Origin: Streptomyces sp. SUK 48
GTDB taxonomy: Bacteria > Actinomycetota > Actinomycetes > Streptomycetales > Streptomycetaceae
Assembly (NCBI RefSeq): GCF_009650765.1
Contig: NZ_CP045740.1
Span: 7,478,001-7,542,000, forward strand
Reading direction: 5' to 3'
Length of the DNA: 64,000 nucleotides
Part shown: in pieces, positions 14,648 through 24,992 of the stretch
How the letters are laid out: each line of letters starts with the position of its first letter
Position numbering within the stretch: position 1 is the stretch's first letter
The notes under the pieces: generated by a model
The model's input: only the letters and a program-made list of their open reading frames with translations
Database searches by the model: none
Told to the model about the DNA's origin: nothing
Translations under genes and position numbers: made by a program

Positions 14648-14938
14648 GCCGGAATTCACCGATTGGCCGGGAAGTGTGCGGTCGTACAACCGGATGACCC
14701 GATTCCACGCCTGCGCGCGGGTCGGGTCTTCGCCATTACCCCGGCTTTGCGACGACGTTTCCGGTCACCCCATGCACCTCTGTCATCACTGCCCGTATCG
14801 TGCGGCAATGCCTCTCCGGTGAGATCGTCACACCGTCATCACATCGCCTTCACTGAACAACCACTTTCGGCCGATCGTGCTTCGGCTCCCCGTGACGGGG
14901 CAGACGCGGCGCGCGCCCCGCGCCTAGCCTCCCGGGCC

Positions 14939-15466
14939 ATGCGATCACCTCTGCTGAGACGCCTCGGTCTCACCGCCGTCCTCGCCGCCGTCCTCGCCGT
15001 CTTCGGCTTCAGCACCCTCGCCAGTGCGGACCCGGCCCCGGCCGCCCTCACCTTCAGCACCGACAGCGCCACCACCACCCCCGGTGGTTCGGTCAAGCTG
15101 TCGATGACGCTGACCAACAACAAGACGTACGACGTCCTGTTCGTCTACCAGACGATCGATCCGACCTGGCTGACCACCCAGCGTCCGGACCTGAAGTACA
15201 GCTTCGCCGGCTGCTCCCTGGCCGCCGCCGACGGCAGCACCACCTCCTGCGCCGGCACCGGCCCGACCAACCTCGGCACCAACTACGGCACCACCATCCC
15301 GCCCGGCCAGAGCCGTACCGTCACCCTGACCCTCCAGGTCGCCGCCAACTCCGGCTGCAACGGCAACATCGGCTTCTACTCGTACTTCTACGCCGAGTTC
15401 AGCGACGGCACCAACAGCAACGGCGGCCCCGTCTACACGCCCGAGACGCGCGTGCTCTGTTCCTGA
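14939..15466 (+). CDS. Small secreted beta-sandwich protein, function unknown
   Basis: A 175-residue exported protein: signal peptide LRRLGLTAVLAAVLAVFGFSTLASA, then an Ig-like/DUF11-type domain (STTPGGSVKLSMTLTNNKTYDVLF...). Four cysteines (GCSL, TSCAG, SGCNG, VLCS) may make two disulfides. The pattern of Thr/Asn-rich strands suggests a cell-surface or matrix adhesin-like module. No catalytic motif is visible. No clear ribosome site precedes the ATG. It ends at a strong hairpin. Confidence 0.65.
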   Translation: MRSPLLRRLGLTAVLAAVLAVFGFSTLASADPAPAALTFSTDSATTTPGGSVKLSMTLTNNKTYDVLFVYQTIDPTWLTTQRPDLKYSFAGCSLAAADGSTTSCAGTGPTNLGTNYGTTIPPGQSRTVTLTLQVAANSGCNGNIGFYSYFYAEFSDGTNSNGGPVYTPETRVLCS

Positions 15467-15764: not shown

Positions 15765-17924
15765 ATGAAGCGGACCATTCGCACCACCACGCTCACGGTG
15801 GGCGCGCTCATCGCCGCACTCGGCCTCCAGGCCGGACCGGCCCAGGCCGACGGCGGCACACCGCGTATCGACCTCAGAGTCCTGGTGGTGAGCGACGGCG
15901 GCCCGGCCACCGACGCCATCGCCGCCGAACTCAGCTCGGAGGGAACGCCGTTCACGAAGGTCGACCTGACCAGCGGCAGCCGCCCCACCATCGACGCCGG
16001 CTTCCTCGCCGACACCGTGAACGGCCGGGCCCGCGCCAAGTACCAGGCCGTCGTCCTGCCCAACGACAATCCGTTCGCCGCCGGCAGCGCCGAGATGAGC
16101 GCGCTCGCCGCCTACGAGCAGACGTACGGCATCCCGCAGGTCGACGCCTACACCTACGCCCGCCCCCAGGCCGGGCTCCAGGTCCCGACCACCGGCGGCT
16201 ACTCCGGCAGCGTCGACGGCGTCCAGGCCCAGGTCACCGCGGCGGGCAAGGCCGGACCCTTCGACTACCTCAAGGGCGCCGTGCCCTTCGAGGACAACTC
16301 GCCGACCGTGGGCGAGAGTTACGCCTACCTGTCGACGCCCGCGCCCGGCGCGGACTTCACCCCGTACGTGCAGGCGATCATCCCGGGCACCACCACCCAG
16401 GGCTCGCTGGTCGGCGAGTACCGGCACGACGGGCGGCGCGAGCTGGTCATCACCTTCGTCTACAACCAGTACCAGCAGCAGTTCCGGCTGCTGGCCCGCG
16501 GCATCGTGGACTGGATGACCGGCGGGGTGCACCTCGGCGCCTCCCGCAACTACTTCGCCGTGCACGTGGACGACGTGTTCGCGGCCGACGACCGCTGGGA
16601 CACCCAGCTCAACTGCACGCCCGGCGACGTCGACTGCACCAACAGCTCCGGCACGCCGAGCCCGATCCGGATGACCCCGGCGGACGTCGACTACGCCGCC
16701 GCCTGGGAGCAGAGCCACAACTTCACCCTCGACCTCGCCTTCAACGGCTCCGGCAGCGTCGATGAGCGCACGGACAACAACGGCGTCGACCAGCTCGCCG
16801 ACAAGTTCATCGCCGACCGCAACAAGTTCCGCTGGATCAACCACACCTACACGCACGCCTTCCTCGGCTGCGAGCAGGACACCACCGTGGTGCCGTGGAA
16901 GTGCGAGACCAACGCCGACGGCAGCACCCAGTGGGTCGGCCGGCAGACCATCGACGACGAGATCACCAACAACCTCATTTGGGGCCTGACCAACGGACTG
17001 CCCGTGGACTCCACCGAGTTGGTCACCGGTGAGCACTCCGGGATGCGCATCCTGCCGCAGCAGCCCGCCGACAACCCCAACCTCGGCCCGGCGCTCACCG
17101 ACACCGGCGTCAAGTGGCTCGGCGCGGACGCCTCCCGCGACCCCGCGCAGCGCCAGGTCGGCCCCGCCGCGACGGTCGCCCGCTACCCGATGAACGTCTT
17201 CTACAACGCGGGCAAGGCGTCCGAGGAGGCCGACGAGTACAACTGGCTCTACACCAGCCGCGCCCAGGGCGGCAGCGGGGTGTGCGAGGACAACCCCGCG
17301 ACCACCACGTGCCTGCCCGCCCCGCTGGACACCGGCACCGGCTACCAGAACTACATCGTGCCGCTGGAGACCCGTATCGACCTCGGGCACGTGCTCTCCA
17401 ACGACCCGAAGCCGCACTTCATCCACCAGTCCAACCTCACCGAGGACCGCATCGCCTACCCGGTCCTCAACGGTGTGCTCGACGGCTACACCAACCTGTT
17501 CGCCGCCAACACCCCGCTGGTGAACCTGCGGATGAAGGACATCGGCACCGAACTCCAGCGCCGCACCGCCTGGACCAACGCCCTGAACGCCGGCCAGGTC
17601 ACCGCCTACCGCATCGGCAACACGGTCACCGTCCAGGCGCCCGGCGGCACCTTGACCAACGCCACCCTGCCCACCGGCAGCACCTACGGTCTCGGCGCCT
17701 TCGGCAGCCCCTACGGCGGTGAACTGTCCGGCTGGACCACCTCCCTCGGCCTCGCGCAGACCTTCACCCTGCCGGCCGCCGCGCCCGCCACCACCCCCGG
17801 CACCCACGGCCACACCCACCCGGCGGCCACCGCACCGGCCCCGCGCACCAGGCTCCCCAAGGGCGTCACCCGGCAGGTCCCGTACGCCCCGCGCCACCAG
17901 GTCAGGCACTCCTCGCAGCACTGA
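15765..17924 (+). CDS. Secreted Agd3/CE18-like polysaccharide deacetylase
   Basis: Exported 719-residue protein, signal peptide TTLTVGALIAALGLQAGPAQA. An N-terminal beta-rich region (about 35-250) resembles the carbohydrate-binding part of Agd3. It is followed by a deacetylase-like barrel with YFAVHVDDVFAADDRWD near 263-278, RWINHTYTHAFLGC near 356-369 and GEHSGMRILPQ near 423: an Asp-Asp plus H-x3-H metal and catalytic set. A His/Pro/Ala-rich tail follows. Family knowledge: Agd3 removes acetyl groups from galactosaminogalactan in Aspergillus. GGGGAGGGG precedes the ATG. A hairpin separates it from the glycosyltransferase. Assignment to CE18 is from motif memory, not a search. Confidence 0.68.
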   Translation: MKRTIRTTTLTVGALIAALGLQAGPAQADGGTPRIDLRVLVVSDGGPATDAIAAELSSEGTPFTKVDLTSGSRPTIDAGFLADTVNGRARAKYQAVVLPNDNPFAAGSAEMSALAAYEQTYGIPQVDAYTYARPQAGLQVPTTGGYSGSVDGVQAQVTAAGKAGPFDYLKGAVPFEDNSPTVGESYAYLSTPAPGADFTPYVQAIIPGTTTQGSLVGEYRHDGRRELVITFVYNQYQQQFRLLARGIVDWMTGGVHLGASRNYFAVHVDDVFAADDRWDTQLNCTPGDVDCTNSSGTPSPIRMTPADVDYAAAWEQSHNFTLDLAFNGSGSVDERTDNNGVDQLADKFIADRNKFRWINHTYTHAFLGCEQDTTVVPWKCETNADGSTQWVGRQTIDDEITNNLIWGLTNGLPVDSTELVTGEHSGMRILPQQPADNPNLGPALTDTGVKWLGADASRDPAQRQVGPAATVARYPMNVFYNAGKASEEADEYNWLYTSRAQGGSGVCEDNPATTTCLPAPLDTGTGYQNYIVPLETRIDLGHVLSNDPKPHFIHQSNLTEDRIAYPVLNGVLDGYTNLFAANTPLVNLRMKDIGTELQRRTAWTNALNAGQVTAYRIGNTVTVQAPGGTLTNATLPTGSTYGLGAFGSPYGGELSGWTTSLGLAQTFTLPAAAPATTPGTHGHTHPAATAPAPRTRLPKGVTRQVPYAPRHQVRHSSQH

Positions 17925-17940
17925 ACGCGCACCGACCCAA

Positions 17941-17969
17941 GGGCCCGTCCGTCACCCTCGGACGGGCCC
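17941..17969 (+). terminator. Terminator or attenuator between deacetylase and glycosyltransferase
   Basis: An 11-bp stem (17941-17951 with 17959-17969) and a 7-base loop lie 17 bases after the deacetylase stop. The 72 bases from there to the next start show no clear promoter, so the hairpin may only lower downstream expression. Confidence 0.7.
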
Positions 17970-18041
17970 CGGCTCCCGGCCGCCCCGACGCGGCCGGGAC
18001 CCGCACGACCACCCCACAACTCTGGCCGTGGAGCCCGATCG

Positions 18042-19559
18042 ATGCACGTTCACCACGGTGCGCGCCGCCCCGGCGCGGCGCACGTCACCCTGCTCACCGA
18101 AGGCACCTACCCGCACAGCCACGGGGGCGTCAGCGTCTGGTGCGACCAGCTCGTCCAGGGCATGCCCGACCTGGACTTCGACGTCATCGCCGTCACCGGC
18201 ACCGGACGCGAACCCGTCGTCTGGGACCTGCCCGCCCAGGTCGAGCAGGTGCTCTCCGTCCCCATGTGGGGCGAACCGCCCGAGGGCCGCGCGCCCCGGG
18301 GCCGCGCGCTCGCCCGGCTCACCGCCGCCTGGGAACGCTTCCTCACCGCGCTTCTCGACCCCTGCGCCGAGGACCAGTTCCCGCCCGCCCTGTACCTGCT
18401 GGCGCGAGCCGCCGCCGAGGGGACGCTGAGCCCGTTCCTGCGCGGCGACCGGGCCATCGCCCTGCTCGCCACCGTGTGGAACCGCCCGGGGCTCGCCGTG
18501 CGCGAGGCCCGGCCCACCCTGCACGACGCGGTCACCGCCACCGCCCTGCTGGAACACGCCCTGCGCCCGCTGGCCGCCCCCGCGCCCGCGCACGGTGTGG
18601 CGCACGCGGTCAGCGGGGGAGTGGCCGTACTGCCCGGACTCGCCGCCCTCGACCGGCACGGGGTCCCGCTGCTGCTCACCGAGCACGGCGTCTATCTGCG
18701 CGAGCGCTACCTCGGCTACCGCACCGCGCCCTACCGCTGGCCGGTGAAGGCCGTCGTCCTCGGCTTCTTCCGGCTGCTCGCCGAGGAGAGCTACCGCAAG
18801 GCCGCCCTGATCACCCCCGGCAACCGCTACAACCGGCTCTGGGAGGAACAGGGCGGCGCCGACCCGAAGGCCATCCGCACCGTCTACAACGGCGTGGACC
18901 CGGCCGCCTTCCCGCCCGCCGGGCCCGAACCGGGGACACCCACCCTGAGCTGGGCCGGCCGGGTCGACCCCATCAAGGACCTGGAGACGCTCATACGCGC
19001 GTTCTCCCTGGTCAGAGCCGAGATACCCGAGGCCCGGCTCCGGCTCTTCGGCGGCACGCCGCGCGGCGGCGAGGCGTACCGGGAGCGCTGTGCCGCACTG
19101 GCGGCCGAGCTGGGCCACGGCGACGCCGTCACCTTCGAGGGCCGCGTCGAGGACATCAAGGACGCCTACGCGGCCGGGAACGTGGTGATGCTCTCCAGCA
19201 TCAGCGAGGGCTTCCCGTTCACCCTGATCGAGGCCATGTCCTGCGGCCGGGCCACCGTCTCCACCGATGTCGGCGGGGTGCGCGAGGCGGTGGGCGACAC
19301 CGGCCTCGTCGTACCACCGCGCGACCCGGAGCGGATGGCCGCGGCCGCCCTGGAGCTGCTCCGCGACGGCGACCGGCGCGGGTCCATGGGGGAGGCCGCG
19401 CGGCTGCGGGTGATCGAGCAGTTCACCCTCCGCCAGACCATCGACACCTTCCGCTCGATATACCTCGAACCCCCCTACCACACACGGGACTTCATCAATC
19501 CGTCGCCGCCGGAGCGCGAGCCCGGGCGCCGGACCGCCGCGGGGAGCCTGGCCGGATGA
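18042..19559 (+). CDS. PelF-like GT4 glycosyltransferase
   Basis: Cytoplasmic retaining glycosyltransferase of 505 residues. It opens with VTLLTEGTYPHSHGGVSVWCDQLVQGMPDLDF, matching the PelF start, and has PVLLTEHGVYLRER (LTEHGVY), NGVDPAAFPP, SWAGRVDPIKDLETLIRAF and the EX7E motif EGFPFTLIEAMSCG. PelF polymerises the GalNAc-rich Pel polysaccharide from a UDP-sugar in Pseudomonas. The following membrane gene overlaps by the ATGA quartet. The C-terminal 30 residues are low-complexity. Confidence 0.87.
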   Translation: MHVHHGARRPGAAHVTLLTEGTYPHSHGGVSVWCDQLVQGMPDLDFDVIAVTGTGREPVVWDLPAQVEQVLSVPMWGEPPEGRAPRGRALARLTAAWERFLTALLDPCAEDQFPPALYLLARAAAEGTLSPFLRGDRAIALLATVWNRPGLAVREARPTLHDAVTATALLEHALRPLAAPAPAHGVAHAVSGGVAVLPGLAALDRHGVPLLLTEHGVYLRERYLGYRTAPYRWPVKAVVLGFFRLLAEESYRKAALITPGNRYNRLWEEQGGADPKAIRTVYNGVDPAAFPPAGPEPGTPTLSWAGRVDPIKDLETLIRAFSLVRAEIPEARLRLFGGTPRGGEAYRERCAALAAELGHGDAVTFEGRVEDIKDAYAAGNVVMLSSISEGFPFTLIEAMSCGRATVSTDVGGVREAVGDTGLVVPPRDPERMAAAALELLRDGDRRGSMGEAARLRVIEQFTLRQTIDTFRSIYLEPPYHTRDFINPSPPEREPGRRTAAGSLAG

Positions 19560-20938
19560 GCGGACCCATGGCCCTGGAGCCCGGCGGCACCGAGCAGGAC
19601 ACCCTCGCCCTCCGGCTGGCCCGCCCCGACGACCGCACCCTGTCCCTGCGGCTGCCCGCCCTCGGCACCGACGAGGCGGCCGTCAGCCTGCTGGCCGCCG
19701 AACTCGCCGACCGCATCGGCCCCGCCGTCCACCCCTACGAGGTCGCCGCCCTGCTGGAGGCCGAGGGCCTCACCGCCGAGACGATCAAGGACCGGTACGG
19801 CCATCCGAACCTGTTCTCGCTGGCCACCGCCCTCTACGAACAGGTGCCCCGCACCTTCCCCGAGCCCGCGCCGGTCGCCGACCCCTGGCGTCCCGACCAC
19901 GTCCGCTGCCTGCTGCGCGGGCTGCTCTTCGCCCTGCCGGGCCTCGCCTACCCGCTCACCGCACCCCTGTGGCACCCCGGCCGGCACGCCGCCGCGCTGA
20001 TCCTCGCGGGGCTGATCTCCTGGGCCTGGGGCCAAGGGCTCGGCCACCGCGCCCATGTGCGCAAGGCGACCGGCCCCCGGGAGGCCGCCCGCACTCTGGC
20101 CGCGGGCGCGCCCCTGGGCGCCGCGCTCGCCACCGCGCTCGCCGCGCCGCTCACCGGCGGCGGCCCGGTCCTGCTCGCCGTCGCCGCCCAGTCGCTCTAC
20201 CTCGCGGCCGCCGGCGTCCTGCTGGTCCTGGCCCGGGAGAAGACACTGCTCGCCGCGCTGAGCCCGCTGCTCGCCGGCGCCGCCTGCCTGCTCCGCTGGG
20301 ACCCGGGGACCCTGGTCCGGCTCGGCCTCCCGCTGCTGGCGCTGCTCGCCACGCTCGCCGCCACCGCACACGCCCTGCGCGGCCTGCTCAGAAAGCCGGG
20401 CGCCGACGGCGGCAGGCGGCCCCCGCTGCGCTGGTCGCTGCCGTACGGCCTGTTCGGGCTCGCCGCCGGGCTGCTGGTGCTGCTCGAAGGGCGCCGGGAG
20501 CCGTACGCGGTGATCGTGCTGACCCTCAGCATGGGCCCCGCAGAATGGCTGCTCTACCGCTACCGGGGCCTGTCCGTCGCCGCCCTGCGCGCCACCGCCA
20601 CCCCCGCCGGATTCCTGCTGCGCTCCGCCGGCGTCCTCGGCCTGTGCCTGCTCGGCTATCTGCTGCCGCTGCTCCCCGCCGCGTACCTCACCGGCGCCCC
20701 ACCGGTCCCGCTGCTGCTGCTCGCGGCCACCCTGTGGACCGCGCTGCTCCTCCAGGCGTTCGGGACCGCCTGGCCGCCCGCCGTGATCTGCCTGGCCGCC
20801 GCGGGCACGGCCGGCGCGGTCACCGCGCTGCGCCTGCCACCCGGCCCCGCCGCCCTGCCGCTCGCCTGCGCGGCCGCCGTGCCGTGTCTGCTGGCGTGCG
20901 CGCTGCGGCTGCTCGGCCGCCCGGCCCGGCACGCCTGA
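19556..20938 (+). CDS. Polytopic membrane protein of polysaccharide cluster (PelG/flippase position)
   Basis: A 460-residue protein not recognised by family. About 110 soluble N-terminal residues (LALRLARPDDRTLSLRLPAL...HPYEVAALLEAEGLTAETIKDRYGHPNLFSLATALYEQ) precede roughly 11-12 hydrophobic helices to the C-terminus. Size, helix number and position immediately after a PelF-like gene match PelG, a 12-helix MOP-type transporter, but no PelG signature could be read. Translation is coupled to the glycosyltransferase through ATGA. Inference: export or flipping component, or membrane partner of the polymerase. Confidence 0.6.
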   Translation: MSGPMALEPGGTEQDTLALRLARPDDRTLSLRLPALGTDEAAVSLLAAELADRIGPAVHPYEVAALLEAEGLTAETIKDRYGHPNLFSLATALYEQVPRTFPEPAPVADPWRPDHVRCLLRGLLFALPGLAYPLTAPLWHPGRHAAALILAGLISWAWGQGLGHRAHVRKATGPREAARTLAAGAPLGAALATALAAPLTGGGPVLLAVAAQSLYLAAAGVLLVLAREKTLLAALSPLLAGAACLLRWDPGTLVRLGLPLLALLATLAATAHALRGLLRKPGADGGRRPPLRWSLPYGLFGLAAGLLVLLEGRREPYAVIVLTLSMGPAEWLLYRYRGLSVAALRATATPAGFLLRSAGVLGLCLLGYLLPLLPAAYLTGAPPVPLLLLAATLWTALLLQAFGTAWPPAVICLAAAGTAGAVTALRLPPGPAALPLACAAAVPCLLACALRLLGRPARHA

Positions 20939-20982
20939 ACCAGCACCTTCTTCTTCCTCGACTCACTGGAAGGACCCACCAG

Positions 20983-21984
20983 TTGACCTCCCAACCGCTC
21001 GCCGCCGTCACCGGCGCCGAGGGCTTCATCGGCTCCCACCTCACCGAGGCCCTGGTCGCCTCCGGGCACCGGGTGCGGGCCATGGCCCAGTACAACTCCT
21101 TCTCCTCCTACGGCTGGCTGGAGACCCTCGCCCCGGACGTCCTGGACCAGGTGGAGATCGTCCTCGGCGACGTCCGCGACCCCGGCTCCGTGCGCGGCCT
21201 GCTCGAAGGCGCGGACGTGGCCTACCACCTGGCCGCCCTGATCGCGATCCCGTACTCCTACCAGGCGCCCCACAGCTATGTGGAGACCAACGTCACCGGC
21301 ACTCTCAACGTGCTCGAAGCGGTCCGCGCCCTCGGCACCCCCCGCCTGGTGCACACCTCCACCAGCGAGACCTACGGCACCGCGCAGACCGTGCCGATCA
21401 CCGAGGACCACCCGATCAACACCCAGTCCCCGTACGCCGCTTCGAAGGCCGGCGGGGACCGGCTCGCCGACAGCTACCACGCCAGCTTCGGCACCCCGGT
21501 GGTCACCCTGCGGCCGTTCAACACCTTCGGACCGCGCCAGTCGATGCGCGCCGTCATCCCCACCGTCATCGGGCAGGTCGCGGCGGGGGAGCGGACCATC
21601 ACCCTCGGCGATCTGCGGCCCACCCGCGACTTCCTGTTCGTCAAGGACACCGCGCGGGCCTTCCTCGCCGTGGGCGGCGCCCCCGCCGAGCAGGTCGTCG
21701 GGCGCACCTTCAACGCCGGTACCGGCGAGGAGATCTCGGTCGGCGACCTCGTCGCCCTGGTCGGCAAGGTCATGGACACCGCCCTCGACATCCGCGCCGA
21801 CCCCGCGCGCATCCGGCCCGCGAACTCCGAGGTGATGCGGCTGGTCGCCGACGCCGGCCGGCTCGCCGCCGCCACCGGCTGGGCACCCGCGCACACCCTG
21901 GAACAAGGACTCGCGCACACCGTGGAGTTCTTCCGCGACCCGGCCAACCTGGCCCGCTACAAGACCGGCATCTACAACATCTGA
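20983..21984 (+). CDS. NAD-dependent sugar-nucleotide 4,6-dehydratase/epimerase (LegB type)
   Basis: Extended short-chain dehydrogenase, 333 residues. The N-terminal Rossmann motif is VTGAEGFIGSH and the catalytic motif YAASKAGGD near residue 150. Also present are HTSTSETYGTAQTVPITEDHPINTQSPYAASK and LRPFNTFGPRQSMRAVIPT, which are typical of LegB-like UDP-GlcNAc 4,6-dehydratases. The start is TTG at 20983, nine bases after GGAAGGA. It should prepare a modified UDP-amino sugar, or epimerise one, for the PelF-like enzyme; the exact product is not determined. Confidence 0.85.
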   Translation: MTSQPLAAVTGAEGFIGSHLTEALVASGHRVRAMAQYNSFSSYGWLETLAPDVLDQVEIVLGDVRDPGSVRGLLEGADVAYHLAALIAIPYSYQAPHSYVETNVTGTLNVLEAVRALGTPRLVHTSTSETYGTAQTVPITEDHPINTQSPYAASKAGGDRLADSYHASFGTPVVTLRPFNTFGPRQSMRAVIPTVIGQVAAGERTITLGDLRPTRDFLFVKDTARAFLAVGGAPAEQVVGRTFNAGTGEEISVGDLVALVGKVMDTALDIRADPARIRPANSEVMRLVADAGRLAAATGWAPAHTLEQGLAHTVEFFRDPANLARYKTGIYNI

Positions 21985-22024
21985 CCCGTCCGGCACGTCA
22001 CGGCGACTTCCAAGGAGGCACCCC

Positions 22025-22738
22025 ATGCACGCAGTGATCCTGGCGGGAGGCAAGGGCGTCCGGCTGCGGCCCTACACCACCGCGCTGCCCAAACCGCTCG
22101 TGCCCATCGGCGACCAGCACGCCATCCTGGAGATCGTGCTGCGCCAGCTGTCCTCGGCCGGCTTCACCCGCTGCACCCTCGCCATCGGCCACCTCGGCGA
22201 GATCATCCGCGCCTACGTCGGCGACGGCTCCCAGTGGGGCATGAACGTCGACTACGCCACCGAGGAGAGCCCGCTCGGCACCATGGGCCCCCTGCTCAAC
22301 CTGAAGGACCGGCTGCCCGAGGACTTCCTCGTGATGAACGGCGACATCCTCACCGACCTCGACTACGCGGACGTGCTGCGCGGCCACCGCGCGTCCGGCG
22401 CGCCGCTCACCATCGCCACCTACGCCCGCAAGGTGCACATCGACTTCGGCGTGCTCACCACCGACGCCAGCAAGGTCGTCGCGTTCACCGAGAAACCCAG
22501 CATGGACTACCGGGTCTCCATGGGCGTCTACGGACTCTCCCGCGCCACCCTCGACGGCTACACCCCGGGCCTGCCGCTCGGCTTCGACGAACTCGTCCTC
22601 GACCTGCTCAGAGCCCAGAACCCGCCGCACGCCTACGAGTTCGACGGATACTGGCTGGACATAGGGCGTCCCGACGACTACGACCGTGCCAACGCCGAGT
22701 TCACCAGCCGCAAGTCCCTGCTGCTCAAGGGAGCCTGA
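22025..22738 (+). CDS. Sugar-1-phosphate nucleotidyltransferase
   Basis: A 237-residue NTP-transferase, shorter than RmlA or GalU because it lacks a C-terminal hexapeptide domain. The nucleotide-binding signature MHAVILAGGKGVRLRPYTTALPKPLVPIG is at the N-terminus; the metal-binding Asp is in VMNGDILTDLDY, and FTEKPSMDYRVSMGVYGLS and DGYWLDIGRPDDYDRAN complete the fold. AAGGAGG precedes the ATG. It probably activates the precursor sugar for this cluster; the nucleotide (UDP, dTDP or GDP) cannot be told. Confidence 0.87.
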   Translation: MHAVILAGGKGVRLRPYTTALPKPLVPIGDQHAILEIVLRQLSSAGFTRCTLAIGHLGEIIRAYVGDGSQWGMNVDYATEESPLGTMGPLLNLKDRLPEDFLVMNGDILTDLDYADVLRGHRASGAPLTIATYARKVHIDFGVLTTDASKVVAFTEKPSMDYRVSMGVYGLSRATLDGYTPGLPLGFDELVLDLLRAQNPPHAYEFDGYWLDIGRPDDYDRANAEFTSRKSLLLKGA

Positions 22739-22745
22739 GTCCCGC

Positions 22746-23630
22746 ATGCGCATTCTCGTCCTGGGCGGCACCGGATATCTGGGCCGCCGGGTGACCGAGC
22801 GGGTGCGCGCCCTCCCGGGCGCGCACCTGCTCGCCGGGGGCCGCACCGGCGCCGAGTACACCGTCGACCTCGCCGCCGACCCGACCGAGCGGCTGGCCAA
22901 GACCCTGGCGGCGGCCGCGCCCGACGCCGTGGTCAACTGCGCGGGTGCCACCGGCGGCGACCCGGTGACCCTCGCGGAGGTCAACGCCCGGGGGCCGGCC
23001 GTGCTCTGCGCCGCGCTGCGCGAGGCGGCTCCCGCGGCCCGCCTGGTCCACCTCGGCTCCGCCGCCGAGTACGGGCCCGGCACCCCGTGCGCGGCGGTCA
23101 CCGAGTCGGCGCCCGCCCGCCCCGTCACCCCTTACGGCGCCACCAAGCTCGCCGGCACCCTCGCGGTGACCTCGGCCGGGCTGGACGCGGTGGTGCTGCG
23201 GATCGGCAACCCGGTCGGGCCCGGGGCACCTCCGGCGAGCCTGCCCGGCCGGATGGCCGCGCTGCTGCGGGCGGCCGGCTCCGATCCCGGGGCCGTGCTG
23301 CGGCTCGGCGATCTGTCGGCCTACCGTGACTTCGTGGACGTCCGCGACGTGGCCCGGGCCGTCGCCCTCGCCGTCACCGCGCCCGGACCGCTGCCGCCCG
23401 TGCTCAACATCGGCGGCGGCGGGGCCGTACCGGTGCGCGACCTGGTGCAGGGGCTCGCCCGACTCGCCGGATTCCGCGGGACGCTGGCGGAGGACGGGGA
23501 CGGCTCGGCCCGCTCCGCCCAGGTGTCCTGGCAGTGCTCGGACATCGGCGCCGCGGAACGCGCGCTCGGCTGGCGCCCGGCCCACGGCCTGGACGACGCC
23601 CTCGCCGCGCTGTGGGCGGCGACGCCATGA
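22746..23630 (+). CDS. SDR-family NAD(P)-dependent epimerase/reductase
   Basis: A 294-residue extended SDR with N-terminal MRILVLGGTGYLGRR, active-site region HLGSAAEYGPG...TPYGATKLAG (YxxxK) and DFVDVRDVARA. The sequence pattern resembles dTDP-4-dehydrorhamnose reductases (RmlD) and GDP-sugar epimerases. It starts eight bases after the nucleotidyltransferase stop and overlaps the Spherulin-4 gene by ATGA, so it belongs to the same operon. A reductase acting on the 4-keto product of the LegB-type enzyme is a reasonable inference. Confidence 0.82.
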   Translation: MRILVLGGTGYLGRRVTERVRALPGAHLLAGGRTGAEYTVDLAADPTERLAKTLAAAAPDAVVNCAGATGGDPVTLAEVNARGPAVLCAALREAAPAARLVHLGSAAEYGPGTPCAAVTESAPARPVTPYGATKLAGTLAVTSAGLDAVVLRIGNPVGPGAPPASLPGRMAALLRAAGSDPGAVLRLGDLSAYRDFVDVRDVARAVALAVTAPGPLPPVLNIGGGGAVPVRDLVQGLARLAGFRGTLAEDGDGSARSAQVSWQCSDIGAAERALGWRPAHGLDDALAALWAATP

Positions 23631-24298
23631 GCCTGCTGATACCGCTGTACGTGCACCCGGCGCAGGACCCCGGCGCCTGGCACCGGCTGATCACGGCGGC
23701 CGCCCGCACCTGGGCCGTGGTCCTGAACCCCGCGAGCGGGCCCGGCACCGAGCCCGACCCCGCCTACACGGCGGCGGCGCGGGCGCTGCGCACGGCGGGC
23801 GCCCGGCTGCTCGGCTATGTCGACACCGACTACGGGACGCGGGACCGGGCGGCGGTCACCGAGGACGCGCGCCGCCACCGGCTCTGGTACGGCACCGACG
23901 GCTGCTTCCTCGACCGGGCCACCGCGACCGCCGAGGGCCTGCCCGACTGCCGCCGGCTGGTCCGGGAACTGCGGCGGCTCGGCACCGGCACGGTGGTGCT
24001 CAACCCCGGCGTCCACCCGGCGCCGGGGTACGCCCGGCTCGCCGACCTGACCGTCACGTTCGAGGGACACTGGTCGACCTACGTCTCCGCGTTCACCCGG
24101 CCGTCCTGGGCCGCGCGTCAACCACCCGACCGGATCTGTCATCTGGTGTACGGCGTCCCCGCCGCCCTGGTCCCGCTCGCCGTGCGCACCGCGCGGGAGC
24201 GGGGCGCCGGGGTGTGCGGGCCGGTGACCGGCGAAGGGCCGAACCCCTGGGCGGGGTTGAGTCCCGCCCTGGAGTTCTCGGACGGTGTGCGAGGCTGA
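23627..24298 (+). CDS. Spherulin-4/Sph3-like (GH135-type) protein
   Basis: A 223-residue Spherulin 4 family protein: MSLLIPLYVHP, VVLNPASGPG, LLGYVDTDYGTR, WYGTDGCFLDRA with the presumed catalytic Asp, and VVLNPGVHPAPGY form the barrel signature. In Aspergillus, Sph3 (GH135) is an endo-hydrolase required to make galactosaminogalactan. Unlike the fungal enzyme, no signal peptide or membrane anchor is visible, so a cytoplasmic location or an unusual export route is implied. Last gene of the cluster, translationally coupled to the SDR. Confidence 0.85.
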   Translation: MSLLIPLYVHPAQDPGAWHRLITAAARTWAVVLNPASGPGTEPDPAYTAAARALRTAGARLLGYVDTDYGTRDRAAVTEDARRHRLWYGTDGCFLDRATATAEGLPDCRRLVRELRRLGTGTVVLNPGVHPAPGYARLADLTVTFEGHWSTYVSAFTRPSWAARQPPDRICHLVYGVPAALVPLAVRTARERGAGVCGPVTGEGPNPWAGLSPALEFSDGVRG

Positions 24299-24335
24299 GC
24301 GCGATCAGCTCGCTCACACCGGGGAGACCCCTCTC

Positions 24336-24992
24336 ATGGCCGTCATCCACCACACGACCCTCACCCCCTCCAAGGTCGAACTGCTCGCCGACTGGCTGCC
24401 CACCCGCCCGTGGTACCGCGGCGGTTCCGGCACACCCGTCCTGGAGAAGACCGGCGGCTTCCGGCTGGACGACCCCGGGGGCGAGGTCGGCATCGAGATC
24501 ATCATCGCCACCGACACCACGAGCCCCGAGCGGACCACGTACCTGGTGCCGCTGAGCTACCGGGGCGCGCCGCTCGAGGGCGCCGAGCACGCGCTCGTCG
24601 GCACGATGGAGCACGGCGTCCTGGGCAAGCGCTGGGCGTACGACGGCATGCGCGATCCGGTGCTGGTCACCGAGCTGCTGCGGCTCGTCGCGGGCGAGGC
24701 GCAGGCCATGGCGCAGAGCGTCACCGACTCCCCCGACCACGAGGTGACGCACGCCTACACGGGCCTCCCGTTCACCCCGGCGTCCTTCACCCCGACCCCG
24801 GCCGACGACGCGGACGGCACCCACCTGCCCACCCCGCACGGCACGGCCCTGCGGCTGCACCGCGTCCTCACCCCGGCCGACGAGAACCCCCCGGTCCCGG
24901 CGACGCCCTCCCTCGGCCATGTCTCCACGGGCTGGCCCACGCCGTCGGGCGACCGCCTGCGCGCCGTGATCCTGACCGTGCGCCAGCACTGA
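24336..24992 (+). CDS. Maltokinase N-terminal cap-like protein
   Basis: A 218-residue protein opening with MAVIHHTTLTPSKVELLADWLPTRPWY, matching the N-terminal cap domain of mycobacterial/actinobacterial maltokinases (Mak_N_cap), but without a kinase domain. Stand-alone versions are common in Streptomyces and of unproven function, possibly linked to trehalose/glycogen (GlgE) metabolism. GGGGAG precedes the ATG. It ends at a very strong hairpin. Confidence 0.75.
   Translation: MAVIHHTTLTPSKVELLADWLPTRPWYRGGSGTPVLEKTGGFRLDDPGGEVGIEIIIATDTTSPERTTYLVPLSYRGAPLEGAEHALVGTMEHGVLGKRWAYDGMRDPVLVTELLRLVAGEAQAMAQSVTDSPDHEVTHAYTGLPFTPASFTPTPADDADGTHLPTPHGTALRLHRVLTPADENPPVPATPSLGHVSTGWPTPSGDRLRAVILTVRQH

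Follow-up and report, generated by a model that had tools for sequence, protein, structure and literature searches.

The 64,000-nucleotide stretch of the Streptomyces sp. SUK 48 genome considered here (the window; the whole genome is 8.34 Mb) holds seven genes at 15765–24298, all on the forward strand, that look like a pathway for a secreted amino-sugar polymer related to those made by the Pel operons of bacteria and the galactosaminogalactan (GAG) cluster of Aspergillus. In order, they encode an Agd3-type deacetylase, a PelF-like glycosyltransferase, a membrane protein, a LegB-type dehydratase, a nucleotidyltransferase, a short-chain dehydrogenase/reductase (SDR) and a Spherulin-4 protein; the dehydratase, nucleotidyltransferase and SDR are referred to below as the trio. 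A preliminary description of the window had placed seven genes at this position, with five of the six junctions overlapping or no longer than 44 nucleotides, and both points are borne out with the likeliest starts, for which the junctions are 117 nucleotides, a 4-nucleotide overlap, 44, 40 and 7 nucleotides and a second 4-nucleotide overlap. The likeliest starts of the dehydratase (20983, a TTG) and of the SDR (22746) are small corrections to that description.

The first gene (15765–17924, forward strand, as are all features below) encodes a polysaccharide de-N-acetylase of 719 residues, predicted to be secreted, which is a full-length relative of Agd3, with the three-domain Agd3 fold (CE18, CBM87 and a C-terminal beta domain) present over its whole length. 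The catalytic residues D377, D378, H510, H514, R613 and H668 of Agd3 correspond to D269, D270, H360, H364, R473 and H554, while M666 is replaced by Phe; the segments of the hidden Markov model (HMM) alignment that carry the HxxxH pair and the Arg have near-zero scores of their own, yet are consistent with the numbering in the accessible text of PMC7229062. The Agd3_CE family (PF25115) matches the protein at 19.6 bits (E 5e-4), below its cut-off of 27.6, and matches 22 of 36 aligned proteins at E 0.01 or better. Direct comparison to the PDB with phmmer gave nothing at E 1, whereas a search with the deacetylase profile did recover Agd3. The relationship to CE18, on which the preliminary description depended, therefore holds by profile, fold and catalytic residues.

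The candidate polymerase (18042–19559; 505 residues) is a GT4 glycosyltransferase that scores 165 bits against the NCBIfam PelF equivalog (NF038011; cut-off 100) and 202 bits against the Pfam family DUF3492 (PF11997), in agreement with its earlier assignment as PelF-like. The adjoining gene (19556–20938; 460 residues) encodes a candidate exporter that has no family match in Pfam or NCBIfam, and whose nearest named matches are from S. murinus and S. griseofuscus. Its structural model contains a helical bundle of the multidrug/oligosaccharidyl-lipid/polysaccharide (MOP) type at residues 107–460, and Foldseek identifies the predicted structure as a MOP-superfamily flippase fold, the superfamily in which PelG is placed. 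The suggestion that this protein lies in the PelG position thus stands as regards position and fold, but kinship to PelG was not detected in sequence: PF16933 was listed for none of 44 proteins at E 1, the PelG HMM gave no significant match, and hhalign gave a probability of 1% for the membrane profile against PelG and nothing significant against PelG, MurJ or Wzx profiles, a weak test in which these three missed each other too and several Wzx rows were short. A search of PDB sequences with the membrane profile returned a single row at E 1.6, which we discarded as noise. By eye, residues ~58–97 carry a conserved motif, roughly A-A-x-L-E-x-x-G ... Y/F-G-x-x-x-x-F-x-L-A, common to the distant membrane proteins of loci L043, L103, L104 and L106.

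The LegB-type dehydratase (20983–21984; 333 residues), which would act on a nucleoside diphosphate (NDP)-linked N-acetylhexosamine (HexNAc), scores 444.9 bits against TIGR04180 (LegB), where the curated cut-off is 475. Its TSTSETYG segment aligns with STDEVYG of the dehydratase 1r66 (STSE on STDE) and retains a Glu, which we take to be the catalytic Glu of 4,6-dehydratases and which is absent from both of the non-dehydratase rows displayed, by their titles a UDP-glucose 4-epimerase (7ys8) and an epimerase/dehydratase (6dnt). The sugar-1-phosphate nucleotidyltransferase (22025–22738; 237 residues) matches the Pfam family NTP_transferase at 132 bits, and its best named kin include mannose-1-phosphate guanylyltransferases, among others. 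The SDR (22746–23630; 294 residues), a candidate C4 ketoreductase, matches the Pfam family Epimerase, also at 132 bits, and its GSAAEYG aligns with GSSEEYG of the GDP-6-deoxy-D-lyxo-4-hexulose reductase 2pk3. Campylobacter jejuni LegB dehydrates GDP-N-acetylglucosamine (GDP-GlcNAc; PMC7439481). From this activity, the retained Glu, the guanylyltransferase-like nucleotidyltransferase and the reductase-like SDR, we infer that the best reading of the trio is the supply of an NDP-6-deoxy-HexNAc, either NDP-N-acetylfucosamine (NDP-FucNAc) or NDP-N-acetylquinovosamine (NDP-QuiNAc). The three had previously been listed as precursor genes; rather than a plain precursor set, they are the distinctive part of the locus.

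The last gene (23627–24298; 223 residues) encodes a GH135-like protein that matches Spherulin4 (PF12138) at 120 bits (cut-off 30) and Sph3 (PDB ID: 5c5g) at E 5.5e-15. Among the putative catalytic residues of Sph3, which are given as Asp-166, Glu-167 and Glu-222 (PMC10485009), the first and last are conserved and Glu-167 is replaced by Arg; the residue there is Gln or Arg in all 36 sequences compared and in all 78 from the named loci described below. No hydrophobic signal was seen by eye ahead of the domain among the 37 sequences listed. With neither a signal peptide nor Glu-167, the Streptomyces protein is probably not a secreted hydrolase of the Sph3 type. The Spherulin-4 domain named in the preliminary description is present. 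In contrast, the Spherulin-4 homologues of two Rubrobacter-like genomes begin with a signal-like segment and contain an Asp-Glu pair.

At E 0.001, 59 of the 121 Streptomyces genomes had relatives of the deacetylase and 56 had relatives of the membrane protein; across the phylum, with two candidates scored per genome, the deacetylase profile matched 13 of 396 genomes, six of them Streptomyces. A census of 72 loci gave 26 that contain the trio (type A, to which the window belongs), 35 that are without it (type B), one of a further type C and 10 that are incomplete or solo. Type A occurs in 26 genomes, type B in 35 and both in nine, as would be expected if the two products differ, though one of the nine (G119) depends on L188 and on L181, a type B locus that stops at a contig end just past the membrane gene and where absence of the trio is not demonstrable. 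A partial trio was seen in no type A or B cluster, and in the broken locus L042 LegB is the one trio gene found at the score applied. Gene order is identical in 24 type A relatives (L061 has only a fragment of the deacetylase and L062 none). In 80 named loci, which are the best 80 of 474 from the membrane profile and hence close relatives, the trio is always present, the genes found never depart from this order and all seven are found in 70; five of the other ten stop at a contig end (L189, L194, L195, L224, L236), and in the remaining five, which are complete stretches, no deacetylase was scored (L218, L222, L238, L264, and L266 with a fragment). The synteny that the preliminary description required is therefore present beyond the window and is more than a chance arrangement. 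A GH114 gene comes next in 56 of the 80 named loci and not in the window; the idea that the genome is without any GH114 was rejected, as two such genes lie far from the locus. In the window this position is held by a Mak_N_cap/CG0192-type gene (24333–24992), directly 3′ of the Spherulin-4 gene, as it is in L061.

The type C clusters (L043, and L104 with L156) have the order deacetylase, glycosyltransferase, membrane protein, nucleotidyltransferase and SDR, followed by a UDPG/MGDP dehydrogenase-type enzyme and a different epimerase. Spherulin-4 was not found in them, and GH114 scores 116 bits in the L043 region and a weak 16.6 bits in L156. Since the nucleotidyltransferase and SDR are kept here with other partners, the donor module would seem to be open to exchange.

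Of the four proteins shared by types A and B, the polymerase is the one whose relationships most clearly follow the trio. Identity to the window's glycosyltransferase is 72.9–100% across the 26 loci of type A and 60.7–67.4% across the 35 of type B, with no overlap. Trees and pairwise comparisons were made for loci L026–L065 plus the window, loci fetched later entering the census only. In the glycosyltransferase tree type B is a single clade (support 100), but type A needs two changes when the very long row of L043 is included. For further comparison we divided type A, after the identities had been seen, into A1, near the window, and A2 (L026–L029 and L032); the glycosyltransferase set has 20 A1, 5 A2 and 12 B sequences, type C being outside the bootstrap. 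Mean identities for A1–A2, A1–B and A2–B are respectively 71.3, 61.7 and 63.3 for the glycosyltransferase, 62.4, 60.3 and 60.0 for the deacetylase (without L040, L041, L042, L061 and L062), 47.4, 43.7 and 50.7 for the membrane protein (without L028 and L062) and 56.0, 52.7 and 57.4 for Spherulin-4 (without L042). The excess of A1–A2 over A2–B, with column bootstrap intervals, is +8.0 points (4.8 to 11.1) for the glycosyltransferase, +2.4 (0.5 to 4.4) for the deacetylase, −3.4 (−6.7 to −0.1) for the membrane protein and −1.4 (−4.9 to 2.2) for Spherulin-4; over A1–B it is +9.7, +2.1, +3.7 and +3.3. That types A and B differ alike in all genes is thus unsupported, as the polymerase differs most. 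This tracking suggests that the trio may make the donor sugar of the polymerase.

We infer the reactions, the sugar, its linkage and any role in adhesion from the families, folds, catalytic residues, gene order and lineage split described above. The nucleotidyltransferase would activate a HexNAc-1-phosphate, perhaps to GDP-GlcNAc, from which the LegB-type dehydratase would form a 4-keto-6-deoxy sugar and the SDR, by reduction at C4, an NDP-6-deoxy-HexNAc (FucNAc or QuiNAc). The cytosolic PelF-like enzyme would polymerise this donor, the MOP-fold protein would take the polymer across the membrane, and removal of acetyl groups by the secreted Agd3-type enzyme would leave a cationic chain. The Spherulin-4 protein has no signal peptide and probably works on the nascent chain at the cytosolic face. 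We stand evenly balanced on the proposition that the product of the operon is a secreted amino-sugar polymer, de-N-acetylated in part and made by such a Pel/GAG-like route from a 6-deoxy-HexNAc donor that the trio supplies; the type A product may be a 6-deoxy analogue of Pel or GAG. We put forward more tentatively, and at below even confidence, that Streptomyces has two such systems in parallel, type B using plain HexNAc and type A a dedicated 6-deoxy-HexNAc. Type A would then yield a cationic, less hydrophilic analogue of Pel or GAG, of the fucosamine or quinovosamine type, with a re-tooled, cytosolic Spherulin-4 setting chain length or release.

Several observations weigh against the 6-deoxy Pel/GAG-like route. 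The LegB score falls short of the NCBI cut-off, and the best PDB match of the SDR, scoring above the reductase 2pk3, is 6wjb, titled epimerase/dehydratase. The Foldseek TM-scores of the membrane protein model are moderate, and its kinship to PelG is undetected at the level of sequence. Both types include loci in which GH114, a polygalactosaminidase family, comes after Spherulin-4, something that a common galactosamine (GalN) polymer would account for too. Types A and B also split in the deacetylase tree (support 99; without the solo or broken L040, L041, L042 and L061, L062, which has none, and L043, under the score limit), and this, with the 3.7- and 3.3-point excess of A1–A2 over A1–B in the membrane protein and Spherulin-4, means that the glycosyltransferase signal may be partly one of shared lineage, in a comparison whose A1/A2 division was itself made post hoc. 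One could imagine an ordinary alpha-1,4-linked polymer of N-acetylgalactosamine (GalNAc) and GalN, made in the Pel/GAG manner from housekeeping UDP-GalNAc, where the trio supplies a minor sugar for priming, branching or capping, or where the SDRs are HexNAc epimerases that raise the donor supply. GalNAc/GalN chains are the substrates of the characterised Agd3, Sph3, Ega3 and further galactosaminidases, as far as the accessible text of PMC7229062 and PMC12054363 goes, the same core is found in type B without the trio, and the title of 6wjb would suit an epimerase. Even so, we regard this polymer as rather unlikely, given that the dehydratase keeps the Glu missing from the non-dehydratase rows and that the link with the trio is stronger for the polymerase than for the deacetylase.

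Two further alternatives are less probable still. The product might be a glycan anchored to the wall, like a teichuronic acid, rather than a free exopolysaccharide; this appears improbable, with none of the seven genes matching a wall-ligase family in Pfam or NCBIfam (a search that did not take in the flanks) and no anchor motif seen by eye in the deacetylase. The idea that the seven are unconnected sugar genes, without a product made in common, could draw on the solo deacetylase genes of L040, L041, L166 and L170, where the glycosyltransferase and membrane genes are absent from the fetched stretch, but the order is intact in the 24 relatives and 80 named loci and the genes overlap at two junctions, which leaves it very improbable indeed.

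Operons of this kind are already published. Bamford et al. 2020 (PMC7229062) describe, in the text accessible to us, bacterial Agd3 homologues in operons with a glycosyltransferase, a multispanning membrane protein and GH114, with Spherulin-4 in those of some Actinobacteria; the window shares the Agd3 homologue, cytoplasmic glycosyltransferase, membrane protein and Spherulin-4, adds the trio and has no GH114 locally. The words "dehydratase" and "PelG" are absent from the main text of that paper, whose Fig. 8c or supplements possibly show the trio. The literature searched held no description of the trio variant, which is not proof of its absence in print. What is new, as far as that text goes, is the existence of two lineages, A with and B without the trio. 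The Gram-positive Pel operon pelDEADAFG (Whitfield et al. 2020, PMC7112168, in whose accessible text Streptomyces appears once, in a remark on cyclic di-GMP) likewise has a PelF-like enzyme, an adjoining membrane protein and a secreted deacetylase, but the window's membrane protein is not recognisable as PelG and a CE18-type enzyme replaces PelADA, a CE26 enzyme according to the part of PMC13254593 available. Neither PelD nor PelE was recognised among the seven genes, and PF16963 (the PelD cyclic di-GMP receptor) had no match in the genome, though the controls gave none either. With the Aspergillus cluster (uge3, gtb3, agd3, sph3, ega3) the window shares the Agd3-type and Spherulin-4 proteins, and many relatives have GH114; it differs in having separate glycosyltransferase and membrane genes, the trio where Aspergillus has the epimerase Uge3, and a Spherulin-4 without signal peptide and Glu-167. 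A LegB-type 4,6-dehydratase is common to the C. jejuni legionaminic acid pathway, but is paired here with a nucleotidyltransferase and an SDR, and an aminotransferase and a NeuB-type gene are absent among the seven. Overall, the Pel/GAG-like pathway proposed in the preliminary description is partly supported. Its families and synteny hold; no sequence kinship to PelG was detected, GH114 is missing locally, the Spherulin-4 protein has neither signal peptide nor Glu-167, and the general idea was already in print.

Two Rubrobacter-like loci, L101 (G160) and L102 (G131), form a bridge between the Pel and GAG gene sets and speak for the Pel/GAG-like route, as a PelF-like glycosyltransferase, a canonical PelG (PF16933; 471 and 459 bits) and an Agd3-type deacetylase adjoin in them, with a Spherulin-4 gene nearby on the other strand. 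L101 also has Agd3_CE and CBM87 above cut-off and a GAF+GGDEF gene upstream, and a PelG (P0242) 87% identical to its own is named Rubrobacter xylanophilus in the database. Around the window's operon, the gap between the deacetylase gene and the other six holds a perfect 11-bp GC hairpin (17941–17969), possibly an attenuator or terminator; hairpins with perfect stems of 8–13 bp occur there in 11 of 19 A1 loci (the window's included), 0 of 5 A2 and 0 of 12 B, as raw counts. A scan for sigma-70-type promoters detected none. A gene for a small secreted-type protein lies 5′ of the deacetylase gene (~14783–15466), with a counterpart close to the deacetylase gene in 10 of the 40 relatives, and its product has no family above cut-off in Pfam or NCBIfam.

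Cationic deacetylated amino-sugar polymers drive fungal and Gram-negative adhesion. A Streptomyces counterpart whose donor module can be swapped would show how a single core machine comes to give chemically different polymers. It would also offer a tractable host for the role of Spherulin-4 in biosynthesis, and would be relevant to the proposal that the fungal GAG cluster came from bacteria.

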